Below are positions 5,264 to 44,995 of a stretch of 64,000 nucleotides of DNA, in pieces. The number at the start of each line of letters is the position of its first letter. The stretch's first letter is position 1. A program made the position numbers and the translations under genes. Source of the stretch: Tricholoma matsutake (taxonomy: Eukaryota > Basidiomycota > Agaricomycetes > Agaricales > Tricholomataceae); contig AP026542.1 of the NCBI GenBank assembly GCA_026075535.2, forward strand, positions 2,914,001 through 2,978,000, given 5' to 3'. The notes beneath the pieces were generated by a model. It was not told the DNA's origin and ran no database searches. It saw only the letters and a program-made list of their open reading frames with translations.

Positions 5264-8200
5264 TCATCATCAGGAAAATTACTTTCTGACCCAGACTTTC
5301 CCAGGGTTAAGGCTATTTCCCAGGGCATACTGAATCACCCTGTGATGCCCTGTGATAGCCTGTGATGCACTGCAACACATCAGGGTTCATGAAATATGAC
5401 AGGTGCAACACCATGTATATTCACTGTGGTTTTTACTCAATTTTTGCCTTCCTTTTCACATTCTCTATTGTTACATAGTGTATTTGTGTTGTATAGTTAC
5501 TAAAGCACTAAATTTAATACCCCCAATATCCTGGTACAGACTAGTACAAGTAAACCAAAAAGAAAAAAAATCCTGCCCCCATGCAAAGCATGGGGCAGGG
5601 GTCATCTGATCATGCATCGACACTGTTGTCTCCTTGTTGCCATTTCCCCATGCCTGTCATCCTCATTGTGCCCGCTACCTCTCTGTTGTCCCTGGCCTTA
5701 CCACTCCCCATTTGCACCCTGTGAGCAGTTGCTTGTGGTGACAGTTGGGGGTGCTGTAAAGGTGGTGGTGGTGGTGATGATGGTGGCCATCCTCATGCTG
5801 GTCTTCCTCTCGTCATCATAGTTGTTGGAGAGTTGGGGCTGCTGGGTCATGCCCGTCATTCTGGTGTCATCCCCCTCCCCATTGTTGGTGTCATTGTTGG
5901 TTTGCATGTTTCCTCCCCCCACAAGGAGTTCCTCGCAGTGGTGATTGGCCATTGTCGTTCTGTTCTTCCACCGGTGATCCACCCCAGGAACAGGCGAGAA
6001 GTGGTAGTGGGGTCATTATTTCTCCCCCTCGTTCCTGTCATGCTCCCCATTTCCACCCTGCAAGCAGCTGCTCACGGTGGCAATTGGAGATGGTGTCATG
6101 GTGTCAGCTCATCCTGCTGTTCTTCATCCTGTTGTCCACCCTGCACGCAGAGGCTCGCAGCGGTGTGGGCATAGGAGATTGCTGTCTCGTCACTCATGTT
6201 TTGTCAGCTGGGGATGTTGCAACATGGCAGGAGGTACCTACCTTGTGGTTAGTTATCCCACTAACTGGGCTCTCTGATACCTCCTATTCAATCTCACATC
6301 CCATATGCAGGTGGAGGAGAGCACGGGTGGGCTGGGACAGCCCTTGTTGTCAAAAAGTCCTAAAGAAGAGTAAAAAGGTGCAGTTAGCCAAATAACAACC
6401 AAAAGTTATAAAAAAAAACTTAATACCCCGACAAGCAGTGGCTCGCAGTGGCAGGGGCGGGTGCTGGGTCATGGTCTCGTCATCGTCCCTCTCTCCCCTC
6501 TCCCTCCCATCATTGTGCCCCTTCTGTTGTCGTTTGTGTCGTCTGGTCCTGGTCCTTGCTCTCAATGTTCCCTCATTCTTCCCCTCCTCCTCGTCCCCAC
6601 ATTGTCATTGTTGTCTGGTTGTTGTTGTTGTTGTTCCCCCATCTTCATTCTCATCTCTCGTCTCTCGTTTCCTGTCACCTTGCTCCCTGTTTCTACCCCA
6701 CGAGCAGTTGCTCATGGCTGTGGTTGGGGGTGCTTTGACATTGGTCATCATCCTTGTCCTCCCCCTCTCATTGTTGTGTCCCTTCTCTTTCCCCTGCTCC
6801 TCCCCATAGTAAAGCTTTGTAACTAGAAACCTGTTAGTAAAAAGAACATGAAACGAGCAAAGAAAAAAAAAACTTACCGGTGGCCCAAGATGACATCCCT
6901 TCCACCTTTTTTTCATTTGGTTTACCTCCTCCCCCTCGTTTCCCGTCATCTCATTGTTATGTTGTCATTCTGTTGTCTCCCCATCACCTCGTCATTCCAT
7001 CATTCCATATGTTGTCATTCCGTTTCATCTGGTGCACGTTGCCATTCCTGTTTCCACCCCACGAGAAGTTGCTTGTGGCGGTAGTTCTGGGTCTCTTGTG
7101 TGGTGGCTGTGGTGGCCATCATCATGGTTTTGGTGTTGTGGTGTTGTTGTACCATAGATAGAACCTAAACAAAAAAAAGAGTCAGTTTAAACAAAACAAC
7201 AAAGAACATCTTAAACAATGTGACATGCCATTTACATTGAGGGTCGCATCTTGTGTACCCATACCCCTACCTGTGCCTACCCTTGGTCCATACCCGCATG
7301 GGTTGGCATACCCTTGCCATACACTAGTTGCGTTTGAAGCCCTCAAAACCTGTAAATTAATAAAACTTAATTTAGTTGAAGTAAAAGAACAAGAAGTGAA
7401 GATAAAAACTTACAAGGGGCCCAAATGACGATGTTTAAGTGAATTAACTTAGAATAATAACCACCTTCAACAATGCCACCATCCTCCCTTTCACCTCACT
7501 ATTACCACCTTTCCACTCCATCAACATCCACCACCATGACTCCCATGCACATTCCCATGCTAGCAAGAGCCACCAGAGGTTAGTAACAAGTCAATAACAG
7601 TTTGTAATGAAGTAAGTAAATAATTGTAATGAGGTTAGTAACAAGTCAATTACAGTTTGTAATGAAGTAAGTAAACAATTTGTAAACAGGTAAGTTTGTA
7701 ATAAAGTAAGTAAACAATTGGTATTGAGGCTAGTAACTGGTCAATTACCATTTGCAATGAATTCAGTAACACTTTTGTAATGGAGTCAGTAACAATTTTT
7801 GTAGTTGTAGGGACTTTGCGCATGAAAAAAGCCTGACGCAATATAGTGGACACCTAGTTTCATGCCTCGCCGTTTCCAGCCATAATACAACCAAACAAAA
7901 CCCCTTGCCTTCTACAAGAGAAGTAATGACTTCCTCTTTACTACTTGTTATTTTGTAAGTCTTTTGTTAGTAAATGTATTGACAGTGGGTAACAAATGTC
8001 ATATTTACAGGCTGGCGGTATCAACAAGCTTCCAATACTGCACTACAAAGTTGTTTACTGACTTCAATACAAACAATTACTAACCGTGACTGTCTCAATA
8101 CAAACTTATTACAAACAATTACTAACTGCCTCAATACAAACTACAAACAGGTTACTGACTTCAATACAAACTATTACAAGCAATTACCAACTTCAATACA

Positions 8201-15130: not shown

Positions 15131-15404
15131 GAGGTCTTTACACTCCCCCCCCCAATCTGAGTGGAGTCTGCTCAGACACTCGGACTGTCCGAGTACTGTC
15201 TGAGTACTGTCCAAGGACTTTACTCAGACTTTGCTTGGACTTCTTTGGCTGAAAGTCCTGCCAAACTAAATGTCCAGTCCAAGCTGAGTCCGAGCTGAGT
15301 CCTCGGACTGTCTGAGCATCCAAGCGGAGTCTGAGTGGACCAGCACTTGTACAGTCCTAGGACTGTCCGAGTTGCTTATATAATTGACTGAAAAATCAGT
15401 GGCT

Positions 15405-15483
15405 ACTGCAGGGATTGAACCCTCATATTCACATGATAAAGTACAATTAAGTCAGCGATATAACAGTTAGACTAAAGCATTAT
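15405..15483 (-). other. tRNA-like Pol III module, left arm of element A
   Basis: On the minus strand there is a box-A-like TTTAGTCTAACTG and, about 50 nt later, box-B-like GGTTCAATCCC. The spacing suits a tRNA-derived promoter, but the arms do not fold into a credible mature tRNA. It points outward, toward the left terminus. Confidence 0.6.
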
Positions 15484-15655
15484 TACAGATGAGTAGTTAT
15501 ATCTCTCTATGTACTGCCCTGGCTGTGATGACAAATCAACACAGCCATGTCATCAACAATGCTGGCAATGGCACTGCCTCCTCCTTACCTCCTACCCCAA
15601 TAACCAACAATGGGAATGAGCCCAAACGATATGGCATTGTTGTTTGGGCTCACTT

Positions 15656-15719
15656 GTAAGTCTTTTTTTACATGATTTTTATTGTTTTGTTTAACTAATT
15701 GAAATTTCCTTAATGATAG
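15656..15719 (+). other. Intron-like block 1 of element A
   Basis: GTAAGT donor, branch-like TTAACTAAT, acceptor GATAG; 64 bp. It follows a palindrome whose arms are GCCCAAAC and GTTTGGGC (about 15620-15649). Confidence 0.5.
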
Positions 15720-16027
15720 GTTTTATCTATGTTATAACGATGCTGCAGCCTCAAAACCATGACAACGGCTGACACAGCCACCACCCTAGGACCCAGAACC
15801 ACCGCCACAAGCAACTGCTTGTGGGGTGGGAACGGGTACAACTGCAAAATGGCAAGATGATGGCGATGCTGACTTGGCCAAATGGAACAACAATGCAACG
15901 AGGCAACTGGAGACAACTGGGACTGGGAGATGGAATGACAAGGGAACAAGTGGGAAACAACAAAATGAAGGCAAAGCAAACAAAGAAAAGGCCCAAGAGA
16001 CATCGTTTGACATCTCTTGGGCTGTTG

Positions 16028-16071
16028 GTAAGTTTTTTTTTCTTGTTTTTGTTACTAACAAACTTTTTTAG
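16028..16071 (+). other. Intron-like block 2 of element A
   Basis: GTAAGT donor, perfect fungal branch site TTACTAACA, acceptor TTTTTTAG; 44 bp. It starts six bases after the palindrome with arms GCCCAAGAGA and TCTCTTGGGC (about 15991-16021). Confidence 0.55.
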
Positions 16072-16393
16072 GTATTATCTAGTACTGCTGATGACGACAA
16101 CAACAAGCACTCAGAACCACTGCCATGAGCAGCTGCTCGTGGGGTGGGAATGGGTGCAACTTCGAAATGACAAGAATGGCTACTCACACCCACCACGCAG
16201 GACACACCACCCACCTCCAGCCTCACAAGCAACTGCTCATGGGGTGGATGGTGGGTGGAATGACGATGATGGCAGGGAATGACAACAGCACCTGCTCCAG
16301 CCCTATGAGCCACTGCTCATAGGGTGGACAATGGGTGGAACAACGACGATTAGGGGAGACCCAAGAGACATCAACATCTCTTGGGTCCTATAG

Positions 16394-16448
16394 GTAAGTT
16401 TTTTTTCTTTTCTCATTTCATTTTTTGATCCTAACTAACTTTTTATAG
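16394..16448 (+). other. Intron-like block 3 of element A
   Basis: GTAAGT donor, branch CCTAACTAAC, acceptor TTATAG; 55 bp. It starts just after the palindrome with arms ACCCAAGAGA and TCTCTTGGGT (about 16350-16386). Confidence 0.55.
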
Positions 16449-16547
16449 GTACAAACTACTACTGGTGATGATGATGATGACACCACCACCACCACTGCTG
16501 TGAGCCCCTGCTCACAGGGTGGAAGGTGAAGGGGAACAGATGAGGGG

Positions 16548-16683
16548 GAAGGAGATGAGAGGGAAGGGAGACAAGAGGGAAGGGAGACAAGAGGGAAGGG
16601 AGACAAGAGGGAAGGGAGACAAGAGGGAAGGGAGACAAGAGGGAAGGGAGACAAGAGGGAAGGGAGACAAGAGGGAAGGGAGA
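16548..16683 (+). repeat. 16-bp minisatellite
   Basis: About eight near-perfect tandem copies of AGGGAAGGGAGACAAG inside element A. The open frame on the opposite strand (Ser-Pro-Leu-rich) is a product of the repeat. Confidence 0.9.
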
Positions 16684-17044
16684 CGACGATGAGAGTGGGG
16701 ACACCCACAACGACACCTGCCCCATGCCTATCTGCTCGTGGGGTGGTTTAGGGGGGAGAAGAATGGGGACAGAAGAGCGAGACAGCCAGGGGATGACCTG
16801 GGGAGAGACAAATGCCGCCATGAGCAACTGCTCATGGTGGGTGTTTTTAATTTATTTTTATAATTGATAGTTATGGCCCCCTCCCCTCGAGCTTGTGAGG
16901 GGAGGGCTTAGTATTATACATATTAATTACCCATATTAATTACCCCTCGCACAGATGCGAGGGGGTCAATTTAATAATCTATTCATGATATATAACAAAT
17001 TAGATTTCAGTAATAAATAGATATAATGTATGTAACTTTAAATG

Positions 17045-17130
17045 ACTATTTGGCTTAAGTGGTAGAGTGTGTATGTTTTGTTGTCATGTGATTGCTAGTC
17101 CAGAAGGCTGTTGGTTCAATTCCTGCTGTG
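17045..17130 (+). other. tRNA-like Pol III module, right arm of element A
   Basis: Box-A-like TGGCTTAAGTGG (about 17051) and box-B-like GGTTCAATTCC (about 17112). It points toward the right terminus, mirror-image to the left arm. There is no credible cloverleaf. Confidence 0.6.
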
Positions 17131-17585
17131 CACACATCATTTTGTGAGACTTAGAAGACTTTCTCTAAGACTGGAACTCAGACTTTACTTGGTCAGTACT
17201 TTAAAAGGTGTAAATAAATGCACAATTGATGTTGTCCGAGCAAAGTCCGAGTGTCCAAGTGTGTCCGAGCAGAGTCTGATCAGACTGGGGGGGGGAGTGT
17301 AAAGTACTGCATTATAATCACCAGAAAAATGTTGTTTTGACTCACTGATGTAATCCTGGTGCTTACTCATCCAGTGCTCATATTTGGATATCTGTCACTT
17401 TCCCCATATATATATACCTACAGCTCAAGATCAGCTTCCTTTTTTCTCCTACTTATGTTCACCTCCATTCACTATTGTATCTTGCCCTTAGACTCTCGCT
17501 CTGCTATATATCCTGATCCTATTAGACTCAGTGAAGCTTAACTCAGTGAAGCTTAACTCTATCCAAGGTAAGCTTACACTTTTTT

Positions 17586-22720: not shown

Positions 22721-22801
22721 GAGCAGGAATTGAACCCCAGACCTTGGTATATAAGTGACATGACTACCAAACAAGTGCTCAACCAGTTGAGCCACAGGAG
22801 C
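22721..22801 (-). other. tRNA-like Pol III module, left arm of element C
   Basis: Read on the minus strand: box-A-like TGGCTCAACTGG and box-B-like GGTTCAATTCC. It is closely similar in sequence to the left module of element B (41021-41103), so the two derive from one source. Confidence 0.65.
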
Positions 22802-23695
22802 ATTAATAAATATGTAATATAATGTCCATTTAAAGCACTTAGGATTAGTTCACTTATTTTTAAACTCTCTCACAAGAGCTCAAAAAAAAATTGTTGAGCC
22901 CTCGCATCTTCACAAGGGAGTACATAACTAATATAGATTTAAAAAAAAAACCCCACACAAATGCAGGGGGGAGAATTAATTATACTATTTAATTATACTA
23001 TTTTAAATTCTACAAAAAAAACCCACCCCCCCGCAAAATGGGGGGGAGGGGGTGGTGGTGTGTCATGTCAGCTGTCTTGTCAGCCCTGTCCCATCGTTTC
23101 CCCTCCCTCTTGTCTCCGTCGTGTCTTGCCTCTCTCACCTCACCTCCCCTGTGGCTTCCTTCCCCTCCCTTGTCTCCCCTCCCTCGTCGTCTCCCTTTCC
23201 CCTTGTCATTTTGTCCCCCCCCCTCGTCACCCTCATAGTTCATCCCCCTCGTCGTCTGCACCCATGAACCACCCTATGGGCAGCTGCTCATAGGTGTGTT
23301 GTTTGGTGCTGTCATCGTCCCTCCATGCCATTCCTGTGCTCTCGCACCCCATATACACCCCACAAGCAGTCACTCATGGCAGTGATGGGGGGTGCTGGAG
23401 GTCATTGGTGTCATGGGGGGTCCATACACTCATGATCCACCCTATGAGCAGCAGCTTGTAGGCATGGGGTGTGTGCATTGTTGGTTCATCAGTGACGTGG
23501 CACGAGGGGAGGGGTCATGTGGTGCTTACCGGGCAGGTATTCCCCTTCTGTGGTCTCCTAGTGTTGCTCCCCATGCTCCTGACCACAATCGATACCCTCA
23601 CATCCCATTTTGATGGGGAGGAGGGGGGTTGCCAGTGGCCTCATTGGGTGTGGGTTGGCTTGCATCGGTCTGTCGTTACCCATGTAGATTAGAAC

Positions 23696-23761
23696 CTAAA
23701 AACAAAACAGATGAATTAGTTAGTTTACAAAAGTAAGAAACGAATGAAAAAAAAAACTTAC
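23696..23761 (-). other. Intron-like block of element C
   Basis: On the minus strand: donor GTAAGT, branch AACTAACTAAT, acceptor TTTTTAG, then GGTTCTAATCTAC. Length 66 bp. The donor follows the GGGCCC arm of a palindrome at 23765-23795. Confidence 0.55.
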
Positions 23762-24049
23762 TATGGGCCCAAATGATGATTGTGTCATTTGGGCATCGTT
23801 TGGGCCATGTGGCATTGAAACTGGTCATTTCTGGTCTTGGGGGCTTGTCTAGAGATGGGGGTGGAGTGGGAGTGGTGGGAGTTGCTGGGTTGAGGTGGTT
23901 GAGGTGGGGGGGATGGAAGTGGCATGCTTGTCATCATTGGTGGTGGTGGTGGGAGTGATGAGCTGGCAGGTGTGATGACACGGCTATGTGCTTTGTCATC
24001 ACACCTGCAGGAATGGTATGTAGTGTAGTATGATCACTTACCTGTACTG

Positions 24050-24124
24050 ACTGCTTAGCCTAATGGTATTATTGTCAGTTTAGGCTTACATAATCTTCTG
24101 TAATGTCAAGTGTTCAATTCTCAT
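24050..24124 (+). other. tRNA-like Pol III module, right arm of element C
   Basis: Box-A-like TTAGCCTAATGG and box-B-like TGTTCAATTCT, weaker than the other modules. It points outward to the right terminus. Confidence 0.45.
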
Positions 24125-24460
24125 GTGTGCATTTAATTTTTCATACTATATTTACTAAGCAAGGCTGCTTTCATTCCTATTGGAATCCTATGTTGTCCGA
24201 TGTCTTAGCATAACTTTGGACTAGTCCTATGTGATTTCTATGATTGGAAATTCCTAGAAAATTCCGATAGTCTGATCGGAATCTGATCAGACTACATCGG
24301 ACTGGACTAGGACTAAATGTGCCATTTCATGTCAATTTGGCTGGTGAAAATGACATCAGAATATGGTTGGATTCCAATCAGAGTCTGATTGGAATCATCG
24401 GAATCATCAGATTCCTATAGGAATATGGGGGGGAGTGTAAAGACCTCGTAATTTGAAGGG

Positions 24461-34149: not shown

Positions 34150-35241
34150 GACAAGTTTCAGACATCTCAAAGATTTCACATTTTTAGTTTCTACTTTGCA
34201 CACTTCAGCATGGGCCCCCAGCCTCCTTCCCATGCCCTACTTCACAGTTGAGAAAAAAAACATTTATCTAATCTAATCTGTATGACAAATTTATTGAAAG
34301 TCAGTAACTCTATTTTTTCAATTGCTCCGTAGGGGTTGAAAAAAATAGAGTTACTGACTTTCAATAAGTTTGTCATACAGATTAGATTAGATAAATGTTT
34401 TTTTTTCTCAACCATGAAGTAGGGCATGGGAAGGAGGCTGATGGGCCCCCAACACTTTGCATGCTTCCCATCACTTCCCCTTTACATAATTGACTTTGAC
34501 AAACCACATTTCGGCTATATTCATGCAGCACACATCACCTCGAGGTGCATCACAATGTTTTGCAATATTTTTGCAATATTTGCAATATTTAGTCAATTCT
34601 AGAACAAAAGGACAGTCTATATTTTGATTTATTGTCTCCCACACTCCCTAGACTCATGGTTATTGTTCCATATTGGTTATCACTTCATCCCTGAAGTCCA
34701 TATGTTTTGTTTTGCCTCATGTTCTCCACATGCCCACTATTGCCTTTTTGGTACTATCTCTTTTTAACCTACAAAACCTTGTATTATCCATGATGAATAA
34801 CAAGGGAAATGTCCCCCAAGTATAGTATTAGTAGTGGAGAGCTAAAAGCTCTCTTCTCATCATTTGAGTCACAAGTTTTAGTCCAAAAATTCTTCAGATT
34901 TTGTTGAAACTTGTTCATCCTCATTTTGCCTCTCGATATCATCATCATCCTCTTGTATTCATCGTCGCTCACCTCTCACATTGTTTATCAACCTTTCCAT
35001 CACTCACCAATATCTTCACAGTTCATTTTTCAACCCCTAAAAATATTGCAACATCTCAAAAAATATTGCAACACCTCGAAACTACTTCGCACATCCTGAA
35101 CTTTGTTCAGATCATCTAGTTTGTTATTATTGGAGATCGGTGAAAGTTTAGAACAAATTGCAACCTTCCTCTGACTTGTGTTATACCAAATAGGACCCTT
35201 TTAGGTGTTTTGTTTGGGTTTCCAGGTTGAGTATCATCACT
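34150..35241 (+). mobile_element. LTR family B copy, 5'-truncated, carrying a MITE
   Basis: From about 34155 the sequence matches the inner part of the 20726-21740 LTR and continues to the same end, TTGAGTATCA at 35236. The first 150 or so bases of the LTR are absent, lost where it meets the Helitron 3' flank. A foldback MITE interrupts it at 34219-34440. It appears to have landed in a diverged LTR of the Gypsy-1 type (35250-35444). Confidence 0.8.
34210..34449. mobile_element. Foldback MITE of Mutator-like (MULE) type
   Basis: The element is 34219-34440, 222 bp, almost entirely two inverted arms of about 100 bp with a loop of about 20 nt. The ends are CAGCCTCCTTCCCATG and its complement. 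It is flanked by ATGGGCCCC at 34210-34218 and 34441-34449. A 9-bp target duplication with long TIRs is the hallmark of Mutator-like elements. The empty site, with a single ATGGACCCC, is seen in the other LTR-B copy near 20946. No coding capacity. Confidence 0.85.
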
Positions 35242-39874: not shown

Positions 39875-40022
39875 GAGGTCTTTACACTGCCCCATATGTT
39901 CCATGCGGATCCGTGTGGAATTACACGGACTCCACACAGATTTGCAATCCATACAATAAACCATTTTAGCTGTGCAACAGGATGTGCCAGTCTGCACAAC
40001 AATTGTGTCGTTTGGGCCGTAG

Positions 40023-40084
40023 GTAATTTTTTATATTCGTTTCTTCTTTTTATCAACTAACTAATTGTTGTCTTTGTTTTTTAG
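40023..40084 (+). other. Intron-like block 1 of element E
   Basis: Donor GTAATT after TTTGGGCCGTAG, branch CAACTAACTAAT, acceptor TTTTTTAG, then GTTCTAATCTACAG; 62 bp. Confidence 0.5.
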
Positions 40085-40155
40085 GTTCTAATCTACAGGT
40101 AACAACAGATGACAACTCAGGCCCAAATGATGCAATTGCATCATTTGGGCCATAG

Positions 40156-40218
40156 GTATTTTTTATTTATTTGTTTCTTCTTTTTATCAACTAACTAATT
40201 GTTTTCTTTGTTTTTTAG
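40156..40218 (+). other. Intron-like block 2 of element E
   Basis: Donor GTATTT directly after the palindrome with arms GGCCCAAATGATG and CATCATTTGGGCC (40117-40151). It is otherwise nearly identical to block 1, 132 bases upstream, so the two are a tandem duplication of the whole module. Confidence 0.5.
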
Positions 40219-40354
40219 GTTCTAATCTACAGGTAATGATGGATGACAATGCGGGACAATGCACGGCCATGCAAACCCCCTCCTCCCCATTTTGACAGGA
40301 TGTGAGGGTGTCGATGAGGGACAGGAGGGAGATGAGGGACGCTGTGAATGCCAA

Positions 40355-40760
40355 ACAATACCAAATATGATCTCAATGAATGGGCCAATAATGTATCTTC
40401 TTATTCCAAGTTAAATAAAACAAATTGGCCAAGAATTGACCAAGATACAGCATTTTGATAATTTAACAAATAAAGATAAACAATTTTGTCAATATAAAAT
40501 GCCCAAGCTACATACCCTTCTACAAGTTAAACTCAATTGAATTAGAACTGGCTCTGATATAGTCTTTTTGATCTGCTTGATATATTAACAAATAATAGCA
40601 AACATCTGTAAATATCCTTTAAGGATAGACCAACAGTATCTTTTTATTTTCAAGTTAAATCATCCAAAATGGATGAAAACTAAAAGAGATACTATATTTA
40701 GGCATGACAACAATGTCAAACAATACCAAATACTCTTCTGATGATTGGCCAATGATGCTG
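40355..40760 (+). repeat. Satellite-like repeat R
   Basis: The unit starts TGCCAAACAATACCAAATA and contains AATGGGCCAATAATGTATCT, CAAGTTAAATAAAAC, CAAGCTACATACCC and CATCCAAAATGGATGAAAAC. The same order appears at 43380-43740. The period is about 355-380 bp. Confidence 0.75.
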
Positions 40761-41020
40761 AACTTTACACTGCCCCACATAGTCCTGGAGGAATCCTGGT
40801 AGTCCTACCAGGAAGACCAGGAATCCTCCAGGAATCCAGTAGGACTCACCAGGAATCACCAGGAATCCAGTAGGACTCACCAGGACTCACCAGGAATCCA
40901 GTGAGACTCAGTACCCTAAAGTCATACCATAATGGAAAGTCAATTTGAGATATCTTACAAGTTTCAAGTGCTTCGGACTTCATGAATTTCACAAAGTACC
41001 TACAAAATAAACTTGTTCAG

Positions 41021-41103
41021 AGCAGGGATTGAACTCTAGAACTCATGATCAAGAATCACATGACAAACCAAACAAGTGCTTAACCAGTTGAGCCACAGGA
41101 GAC
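41021..41103 (-). other. tRNA-like Pol III module, left arm of element B
   Basis: Minus strand: TGGCTCAACTGG (box A) and AGTTCAATCCC (box B). It is homologous to the element C left module. It points outward. Confidence 0.65.
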
Positions 41104-41207
41104 TTATTAGCTGCAATGTAAAAGTGTATTTATACCCTCAAACTCAAACTTAGCTATTTCTCTCTCAAAGCTCACAATTAAGATCAAATAAAATTTATTA
41201 ACTACAT

Positions 41208-41460
41208 CCCTCGCGTCCAATGCGAGGGATACACCATTAATTACATAATAAAAAAACCTCCCCCACACAAGGTGCGAGGGGGAGTCCTACAAATATATAC
41301 ATATAAAACTAATCTCCCCTCGCATTTGACGCGAGGGGAGCACTACAATTATAAATAAAAAGAAAGAAAAACCCCTCACCCACGTAAAATGCAGGTGAGG
41401 GGGAAGGTATTGCCATAAATAAAAAATGAAAAAAACCACCCCACCCAAAATGTGGGGGCA
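41208..41460. repeat. GC-hairpin ladder in element B
   Basis: Successive perfect or near-perfect stems with 4-8 nt loops, separated by AT-rich spacers: CCCTCGCGTCCAATGCGAGG, CCCCCACACAAGGTGCGAGG (weaker), CCCCTCGCATTTGACGCGAG, CCCCTCACCCACG...AGGTGAGGGG and CCCCACCCAAAATGTGGGGG. Similar stems occur in elements A (about 16895, 16945), C (about 22895, 23025) and D (5572). Confidence 0.75.
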
Positions 41461-42004
41461 GCCTGGTGAGTCATGCCTGTCATCCTGTCCCCATCATCCT
41501 GGGTGCCGGGCCTTCATTGTCGCTGTCCTTGTCGTTGCCATCCTGGGCATCATTTCCATGCTGCTCCTGGTCACCATGCCCTTCCTGGTCATTGTTGCCA
41601 TCCTGGCCATCTCCTGCTGTGTGGTGGTGGCCGTCATCGCCATTCCACCCGCAATCCACCCCATGAGCAGTGGCTCATGGGGCTGGAGGTGGGTGGTGTG
41701 TCGTTGGCCCTGTTGTCATTGTCCATTGTGGTTGGCAGCTGTGCTTTGCCTTCTTGGGGTTCTGGTGCTGGTAGGCGGTGGCATTGTTGTTGTCATTGAC
41801 TGCACACACTCACAATCCACCCTACAAGCAGAGGCTTGCAGGCATGGGGTGGGTGTGTTGGGTTGTCTCATGTCCGGCTGTCATTACCAGTAGAGTAGAA
41901 CCTATAAAACAAAAGAAACGAGTTAGTTAGTTTATAAAAACAAAAAGCAAACAAAAAAGAATTATGTAGGGCCCATCCAGTCTCATCGTAGTCAGTAGCT
42001 AGTA

Positions 42005-42053
42005 CTTAAAAAGTTTTGTCAGTGACCAAAAAAATAAGAGAAAAAAAACTTAC
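42005..42053 (-). other. Intron-like block of element B
   Basis: Minus strand: GTAAGT donor, CACTGAC branch, TTTTTAAG acceptor, 49 bp. It follows the palindrome with arms GCCCAAGAGACGTC and GACGTCTCTTGGGC (42058-42089). Confidence 0.5.
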
Positions 42054-42474
42054 TTATGGCCCAAGAGACGTCATCGACGTCTCTTGGGCATTCCCTGGTG
42101 CTGGTGTCCTGTTGTCGTTGCGTGGTCATCTCCGTCCTCGCACCCATTTGTCATCCTGGCTTTGCTGTCGCTGTCCTGGCCATGTTGCATTCCCTGGTGC
42201 TGGTGTCCTGTCATTGTTGTGTGGTCGTGCTTGTTGTCCATTGTCCTCCCTGTCCTGTCGTTTTTGTGGTTGTCCATTGTCCTCCCGTCCTTGTCTTGCC
42301 ACCCTGCTGCTCTCGTTGTTTTGGGCCTTGCCACCCCGCTGCTCTCGTCGTTTGCGGCTCCTCATCTCCATCTCTGTGGTCCTCATTGTCGCTCCCCGTT
42401 TCCACCCCACGAGCAGCTGCTCACGGCGGTGGAGGGTGCGGTGGTGGTGGGGGGTTGCATCATACAATGAGAAA

Positions 42475-42538
42475 CTATAAAAATTCAAAAGAAAACTAAT
42501 ATTAATCAAAAAAGAATGAAACAAACAAAAAAAACTTA
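42475..42538 (-). other. Intron-like block of element B
   Basis: Minus strand: GTAAGT donor next to the palindrome GGGCCCAAACGATGATGTAC/GTTTGGGCCC (42543-42573), acceptor TTATAG; 64 bp. Confidence 0.45.
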
Positions 42539-42633
42539 CCTGGGGCCCAAACGATGATGTACGTTGTTTGGGCCCATTTCCTTACAGCCTTTTTGTCATT
42601 GGTGTTGTCTTGTTGTCATGATATAGTTAGAAG

Positions 42634-42690
42634 CTAAAGAAGGAAAGAAAATATTAGTTAGTTCAATAAAAAAAAAGTAAAAAACATTAC
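42634..42690 (-). other. Intron-like block of element B
   Basis: Minus strand: GTAATG donor beside the GGGCCCC palindrome arm (42693-42725), branch GAACTAACTAAT, acceptor CTTTAG; 57 bp. A further block at about 41902-41965 keeps the acceptor and branch but has ATAATT where the GT donor should be. Confidence 0.45.
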
Positions 42691-42956
42691 CTGGGCCCCA
42701 AATGACATCTGTCATCGTTTGGGCCCGAGGTGGTTCAAATGCGGCCGTTGGTGGCATTAGACGAGGTGGTGGTGGCCATAGGAGCAGTGGTGACAGGTAT
42801 TGATGGAGGGGAGGTGGTGGAAGGGAGGTGGCGTCGTCATCAAGAGTGGTGATGATGGGTGGATGATGAGCTGGCAATGTCGATATGCGGCTGTGTGCTT
42901 TGTCATGCACAGCTGCCCCAATGGTACCTAGAGCAGTAAGTGGACATACCTCATAA

Positions 42957-43031
42957 GTCTTTGTGGTGTAATGGTTATACTGGCTATGCTAAAATGTTGT
43001 TGTCTCATGCCTAGGGTTCAATTCCAGCTCA
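42957..43031 (+). other. tRNA-like Pol III module, right arm of element B
   Basis: Box-A-like TGGTGTAATGG and box-B-like GGTTCAATTCC, 50 nt apart. It points to the right terminus. The source tRNA differs from that of the left arm. Confidence 0.6.
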
Positions 43032-43379
43032 TGTTATTTATTTTATTACTTAGTAGTAGTAAGGACTCCTGGTTCAATCCTACTGGATTCCTGGTGAGTC
43101 CTGGTGAGTCCTGGTGAGTCCTGGTTCAATCCTACTGGATTCCTTGTGAGTCCTTGTGAGTCCTTGTGAGTCCTGATGAGTAGAGTCCTACAGGATTCCT
43201 GGTCAGTCCCCCCAGATTCCTGAGAGTCCAAGTCCTGGGGAATTCCTGGAATATTACCAGGAATATACTGGGACTGAACCAGGAATCCCACTGGAGGAAA
43301 AACAGCCAGGAATGCAACATTTGGTGAACAATGGCTGTGGCAGGGATAACCAGGAATATGTGGGGCAGTGTAAAGAGCT

Positions 43380-43868
43380 CCAATGATGGGCCAATAGTGT
43401 ATCTTATTCCAAGTTAAATAAAACAAATCAGCCAAGATACAGTATTTTGATGATTTAACAATTAAAGATAAACAACATTTGTCAGTGTAAAGTGCCCAAG
43501 CTACACCCTTCTACAAGTTAAATAAACTCAATTGAGTTAAAACCAGCTCTGACATCATCTTTTTGATTTTTTGATATATGAACAAATAATGCCAAATATC
43601 TGTAAGTATCTTTTAATAATAGACCAACAGTATACTTTTCATCTTGCAAGTTAAATCATCCAAAATGGATGAAAACTGAAGGAGATACTATATTTAGCCA
43701 TGACAACAATGCCAAACAATGCCAAATACCCTCCCAATGATTGGCCAATAATGTATCTTCTCATTCCAAGTTAAATAAAAGAAATCAGCCAAGAATTGAG
43801 ATACAGTATTTTGATGATCTAACAAGCAAATATAAACAACTTTTGTCAGCACAGGGTAAAGTGTCCAA
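43380..43868 (+). repeat. Satellite-like repeat R, about 1.3 tandem units
   Basis: GGCCAATAGTGTATCTTATT at about 43389 recurs as GGCCAATAATGTATCTTCTC at about 43744, a period near 355 bp. It continues from the right end of element B to the B2 repeat of the DIRS-type element. Confidence 0.75.
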
Positions 43869-44734: not shown

Positions 44735-44995
44735 CTACTGTTGCAGTTGAATAGTGGCCAATTGCTGTTTGACCCTGATAGAGGGGTTTTCGTGAATATA
44801 AATCTTCCAGGTGTCTGATGACCAATGGCTGACAGCTTGGATGATAGATTCAGACAGACCCAGTGAGGTGAGAAGAGTGGCGTAACCAGTCGGTGGAGAA
44901 TGACCACCATAGCAACAATCCAGGATGATGAAAAACTTGAGGTCAAACCAAGATCTAGAAGGATGCAAGCCGTTTAAATGTAAAGTGACAGACAT
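44735..44995 (-). pseudogene. Tyrosine recombinase C-terminus of a DIRS-type element
   Basis: The frame reads SRSWFDLKFFIILD, GGHSPPTGYATLLTSLGLSE and WSSDTWKIYIHENPSIR. The nucleophile Tyr is present in WKIYI. The HxxR motif is damaged: GGHS is followed by Pro-Pro where an arginine is usual. The N-terminal part is missing above 44995. It is followed on the minus strand by the split direct repeats, so it is the 3' end of one element copy. Confidence 0.75.

Follow-up and report, generated by a model that had tools for sequence, protein, structure and literature searches.

What kind of element carries an outward-pointing tRNA-like module inside each of its two ends, and what could move it? The question is raised by a 64-kb stretch of the Tricholoma matsutake genome (contig 5, 2,914,001-2,978,000; hereafter the window), which holds two complete elements, A and B, and for which an initial annotation had proposed a mobile family of composite elements. 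Following these elements through the genome (161,040,721 bases in 13 contigs) bore out the proposal of mobility, since paired ends, 8-bp target-site duplications and outward modules recur in other copies and a relative codes for a transposase. We conclude that the matsutake elements are probably cut-and-paste transposons with an outward tRNA-like promoter module inside each end, and that a poorly understood protein resembling the mobilising enzyme is encoded by a longer relative whose ends match theirs.

Element ends, target-site duplications and outward modules

Comparison of the ends of the elements in the window and of the genome copies shows that both ends share CTTTACACT[GC]CCC and a CTTTACA core. 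The terminal inverted repeat (TIR) said at first to be common to the elements thus exists as this shared sequence but not as one identical repeat, the outer 5 bp differing between the two ends: GAGGT on one and CAGTA on the other, replaced in B by GAGCT and CTGAA, respectively. B, with its GAGCT-type end on the right, lies in minus orientation relative to copies that have GAGGT on the left; it is a real element, though its span is 40758-43380 and so 5 bp longer on each side than the 40763-43375 originally assigned. Genome-wide, GAGGTCTTTACACT has 593 matches on the forward strand and 585 on the reverse, against a single match to its reversed-letter control, giving 1,178 exact left ends or about 7 per megabase; CAGTACTTTACASTCYCCC is found 353 and 356 times on the two strands, its reversed-letter control never.

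The pairing of these ends was assessed on lists of the first 100 places per pattern, all on contig 1. A correctly oriented CAGTAC partner lies within 4.5 kb of 39 of the 100 GAGGTC places, versus a mean of 1.14 after random displacement (200 trials, maximum 5); 33 of the 39 pairs are 1.75-2.75 kb long, and one right end serves two left ends. For 13 nearest pairs, chosen by end patterns alone and without a duplication filter, an 8-bp duplication with at most one mismatch stands at the exact boundary in ten (six exact, four with one mismatch), so that full-length copies with target-site duplications, as had been anticipated, are present. Two more pairs show the duplication shifted by 1 bp, without a mismatch in one case and with a single mismatch in element A (which has TTATAAT on either side), and the last is a mis-pairing in which two nested copies were wrongly joined. 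Two of the 13, L013 and L014, are duplicates of a single locus with common flanks; the unfiltered test left out the last two of the 100 module places, and 16 of the 17 elements in the comparison of ends and duplications had initially been picked with a duplication filter. Matching ends combined with a target duplication of fixed length are the pattern of DDE cut-and-paste transposition.

Inside each end lies a block of repeats whose motif is specific to the subfamily: CCAGGA/AGGAAT in B, CTCAGA/GTCTGA/GTCCGA in A and GACTCC/GAGTCC in the most-sampled subfamily, in agreement with the early observation that this motif changes between elements. The modules were scored by box A and box B together with at most two mismatches, and box B with at most one, using patterns drawn up once the modules of A and B were already known. 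A scan of the window returned exactly five modules, two each in A and B and one in C, every one facing outward. Across 16 elements the outward modules number 11 on the left and 14 on the right and the inward ones zero, with means of 0, 0 and 0.07 in 60 sets of shuffled elements. (The 16-element set omits the nested outer copy of L012, which is included, with one module twice, in the 28 module rows described next.) A T-run of at least four follows box B at 13-17 nt in 22 of 28 rows, comes directly after it in five and is absent in one; box A, box B and T-run thus stand in the order of a type-2 RNA polymerase III (Pol III) promoter. The 100 right ends listed for contig 1 comprise 56 CAGTACTTTACAGT and 44 CAGTACTTTACACT ends; the right-module sequence occurs within 1 kb inside 43 of the former, always outward and in 42 cases at 221-464 bp from the end, and inside none of the latter. 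Element A, which has the CAGTACTTTACACT kind of end, carries another module variant. Two modules in the unfiltered test were found outside an end, less than 1 kb away.

ARAGORN, run on the window and on 24 loci, called no tRNA; a search of Rfam in the window at E 1 gave no tRNA family among its matches and nothing relevant; and in four folded modules stability never exceeded that of the shuffled sequences (z -0.27 to 1.72). Given the lack of both a tRNA call and a stable fold, the modules are therefore promoter-like elements and not tRNA genes, although their boxes and the order of these point to a tRNA origin. The initial description of outward tRNA-like modules accordingly stands for the boxes, the usual T-run and the orientation but not for a tRNA fold, and the mirroring of left and right halves holds for the layout, whereas the module sequences of the two sides differ.

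Further in, many copies contain units in which an intron-like stretch (GTAAGT...CTAAC...AG) comes directly after a hairpin (hairpins judged by eye). Relative to the GAGGT end, this pattern matches 22 times in sense and never in antisense across 17 elements, one match being counted twice through nesting, and the strict form has no match in six of the 17, B among them. In L014 these units recur at about 150 bp; such units of hairpin and intron-like stretch are likewise seen in L013, L027 and the two units of element A (Table 1). L026 contains a long tandem array within one element at 7320-8150, with several frames open, and element A a short tandem repeat of the GGGAGACAAGAGGGAA type at 16560-16690 (by eye). 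An 8.2-kb pair, L042, was set aside as a longer member, as by eye it looks like an element of the 2-kb type plus an inserted retrotransposon.

Table 1. Elements of the window and their parts (window positions)
Feature	Position	Strand	Remark
Element B, complete, no recognisable gene	40758..43380	-	ends and 8-bp duplication
B left target-site duplication CAATGATG, 8 bp	40750..40757	.	
B right target-site duplication CAATGATG, 8 bp	43381..43388	.	exact match to left
B left subterminal repeat block, CCAGGAATCC type	40777..40915	.	limits by eye
B left tRNA-like module, box A to box B, outward	41025..41095	-	0 mismatches to box patterns
T4 run, 17 nt past box B of B left module	41004..41007	-	
B palindromic hairpin beside intron-like stretch	42058..42089	-	by eye
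B right tRNA-like module, outward	42964..43025	+	0 mismatches to box patterns
T4 run, 15 nt past box B of B right module	43041..43044	+	
B right subterminal repeat block	43063..43360	.	limits by eye
Element A, complete, no recognisable gene	15131..17309	+	ends and near-8-bp duplication
A left tRNA-like module, outward	15411..15474	-	2 mismatches
A right tRNA-like module, outward	17051..17123	+	2 mismatches
A hairpin and intron-like unit	15990..16071	+	GTAAGT...CTAAC...TAG at 16028-16071
A second hairpin and intron-like unit	16357..16448	+	intron-like part 16394-16448
Element C, truncated	22726..24447	-	left end at 24442, right module 22726-22794
Element E and adjoining sequence up to B	39875..40757	+	left end at 39880

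Neither complete element has a long reading frame: the longest open stretch is 156 codons in B and 169 in A, with no Pfam match above cut-off in the six of eight and four of six stretches scanned, respectively. As to the two supposed truncated relatives, C qualifies by its left end and right module, its right end not being found in the window and the sequence past the module looking retrotransposon-like by eye; E has a left end but no convincing right end in the window, where the single candidate, at 44985, lacks the C-run. Elsewhere in the window, 34291-34367 forms a long near-perfect hairpin with weak Rfam matches to unrelated families, one of them on both strands.

A coding relative with CxC5 and CxC6 domains

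The search for an autonomous copy led to L043, a 6,272-bp element on contig 1 (10,674,842-10,681,113) with the same ends as A and B, flanked by TTTAAAGT and TTTAAAGC. It has subterminal repeats of the AGTCCA/GAGTCC type and one outward module per end, and its left terminus is 84.9% identical to that of L009b (251 columns) and 93.4% to that of L013 (183). A scan of five reading frames detected CxC5 in its interior at 105.9 bits (cut-off 26.9) and CxC6 at 26.9 bits, just under the cut-off of 27.5. In-frame stops interrupt the coding region of this copy; CxC5/CxC6 copies whose open frames are longer occur, for example, on contig 10 near 2,235,810 and on contig 9 near 10,235,158. By eye, a similar intron-like stretch lies ahead of the first long reading frame of L043, and what the short copies have may therefore be a duplicated leader retained from their parent.

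The protein has 807 relatives at E 0.001; CxC6 is present in all of 39 protein relatives and CxC5 in 38, and the features of a DDE enzyme, an RNase H-like transposase with an acidic triad, are found. A first structure model from the 39 sequences (predicted local distance difference test score 62) gave no usable result, and a sequence search against solved structures gave chance matches only. In the genome, the CxC6 region of L043 has at least 150 matches. On contig 1 below 15.54 Mb, an exact right end lies 1.06-1.23 kb downstream of CxC6 at four of 17 places (10679647, which is L043 itself, 13872533, 10683418 and 10386586) and was not seen at that distance in the other 13; the three full-length CxC6 matches of at least 94% identity are all among those four. 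The 35-base left end of L043 has 19 other exact copies, and from the one at 15,704,376 a 96% identical CxC6 region follows 4,813 bp on, versus 4,805 bp in L043. A recurring block near 4.914, 5.092 and 5.315 Mb of contig 1 joins a CxC6 match, a Plavaka match and a GAGGTC end, the last about 1.0-1.1 kb past the Plavaka match.

Proposed mobilisation and possible role of the modules

We consider it likely that A and B are non-autonomous cut-and-paste DNA transposons mobilised by a CxC5/CxC6-type DDE transposase, with outward modules at their ends. Such a transposase would recognise the shared CTTTACACT end together with the subterminal repeats peculiar to each subfamily, cleave at both ends and integrate the element through an 8-bp staggered cut; the ends and the duplications are observed, the action of the enzyme on A and B inferred. 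The modules, resembling type-2 Pol III promoters, would bind Pol III factors, and by recruiting TFIIIC and Pol III could keep the ends insulated and in open chromatin that the transposase can reach; any short transcript would end inside the element. Insulation, with the ends protected from silencing, is the role that we favour for the modules, as plausible if short of probable.

About equally plausible is that the modules do nothing: tRNA-derived fragments might have been caught once in an ancestor and inherited as inert relics. The modules form no cloverleaf and are not called as tRNA genes, some copies have lost a recognisable module, and since copies share descent, repetition of the module alone is no proof of selection. 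Against inertness, the boxes and the spacing of the T-run are kept in subfamilies whose subterminal and interior sequences have diverged (A, B, L016 and L043), and the two ends carry unlike modules in the same outward orientation. A role in target choice or small-RNA silencing seems improbable to us. Some transposons do target tRNA genes, and short outward transcripts could supply small-RNA pathways; yet the T-run of most module rows would stop a transcript within the element, and by eye the duplications have no common target motif.

Improbable too is that the family is moved by hAT or ordinary KDZ (PF18758) transposases, the CxC5/CxC6 sequence having entered L043 by capture or nesting. Duplications of 8 bp are usual for hAT and are also made by Zisupton and a Dileera element, according to the available part of PMC12730594; the genome has at least 165 KDZ and at least 151 hAT-dimer matches, and at L035 and L036 a KDZ gene lies about 3 kb or less from a left end. 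However, the KDZ gene of L036 was rejected as the source, being part of a separate unit whose similarity to L040 and L041 begins about 640 bp inside the composite end, and three further KDZ loci (L037-L039) were dismissed for want of such ends in the 9 kb fetched. In the five L043 frames scanned no other transposase domain was found, hAT dimerisation/DUF659 included, and the spacing from CxC6 to the end recurs at other loci. Among the hAT matches listed on contig 1, none was by eye near a listed end, and Plavaka matches, near some ends, lie outside the elements (by eye); both were discarded as sources. Membership in CACTA/EnSpm or Plavaka was rejected on the 2- or 3-bp duplications given for these in the same available text (PMC12730594), versus 8 bp here. 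The long KDZ element itself (L036 from 877, L040 from 1159 and L041 from 774) is 87-95% identical among the three loci and adjoins composite-element sequence at two of them. Finally, the interiors do have low complexity and internal repeats, but a family produced by shared low-complexity sequence is next to impossible given the reversed-pattern controls, the excess of paired ends, the duplications and the common termini of the genome copies, whose absence would have marked the family as an artefact.

Relation to known transposons and repeats

A mutation of interest for mushroom breeding may belong to the lineage favoured here. In a sporeless strain of Pleurotus ostreatus, MSH4 is disrupted by an insert of 6,792 bp that contains a single CxC5/CxC6 frame, 739 amino acids long; CxC5/CxC6 regions number 44 and nearly 60 copies in two genomes, and the authors, who saw no KDZ gene nearby, suspected a Copia element (PMC7641404, as far as its text was available). 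The insert is near L043 in size and content, and from the matsutake data we predict that it would be a stand-alone transposon of the same lineage. More tentatively, CxC5/CxC6 might define a DDE transposase lineage of its own, with elements that carry paired outward Pol III/TFIIIC insulator modules and with the oyster mushroom insert among them. The matsutake elements give a large protein family of unclear role a likely function and defined DNA ends, which opens the way to a transposition assay, and they offer an explanation for the breeding-relevant mutation, only tentatively assigned by its authors. Should Pol III factors indeed be recruited by the modules, the family would be a case of a DNA transposon equipped with insulator-type elements of its own, and built-in insulators would offer a testable idea of how such elements resist silencing.

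The nearest comparison is with KDZ transposons (Kyakuja, Dileera, Zisupton), since Pfam describes CxC5 and CxC6 as cysteine clusters associated with KDZ transposases. CxC-type zinc clusters are present in L043 and its relatives, and the 8-bp duplication of Zisupton and Dileera is also found here; paired outward tRNA-like modules receive no mention in the available part of PMC12730594. In contrast, PF18758 is undetected in P0060 at E 10 and in all five scanned frames of L043, and for the other 38 relatives it is absent from the 25 of 31 families listed. A profile comparison with KDZ gave a probability of 1%, these being sequence tests that leave room for a distant relation. Because the domain goes undetected in the L043 frames and P0060 and the profile comparison fails, we do not class the family with KDZ, even though its way of working is like that of a KDZ transposon. 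hAT elements such as MarorhAT of Marasmius oreades likewise combine a coding copy with short non-autonomous copies sharing its ends, but the scanned L043 frames have no hAT domain, and the available part of PMC9674265 describes no outward promoter modules.

Related sequences may already be recorded under other names. In Tricholoma bakamatsutake, 275 of 277 predicted tRNA-Ile genes have a TAT anticodon (PMC10627285, available part), and these calls may be tRNA-like modules of this transposon family. The 'Small RNA' repeats of T. matsutake, 2,342 copies totalling 1,936,958 bp (PMC10211490, Table 2, from its available part), average about 830 bp, a large size for small RNAs, and may be copies of the present elements under a wrong name. 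megB1 of Tricholoma is described as an Alu-like dimer, one copy of which lies away from the rRNA genes in this Tricholoma section (PMC10627285, whose available part gives no box A/box B promoter for it); by that description it contrasts with the present elements, which have modules at both ends, TIR-like ends and 8-bp duplications. Open-literature titles and abstract openings (Repbase being outside this scope) yielded no DNA transposon with paired outward tRNA-like modules. tRNA-derived short interspersed nuclear elements (SINEs) have a Pol III-type promoter of box A and box B, and in these boxes they resemble the matsutake elements; the matsutake elements differ from them in having modules at both ends, TIR-like ends and 8-bp duplications.
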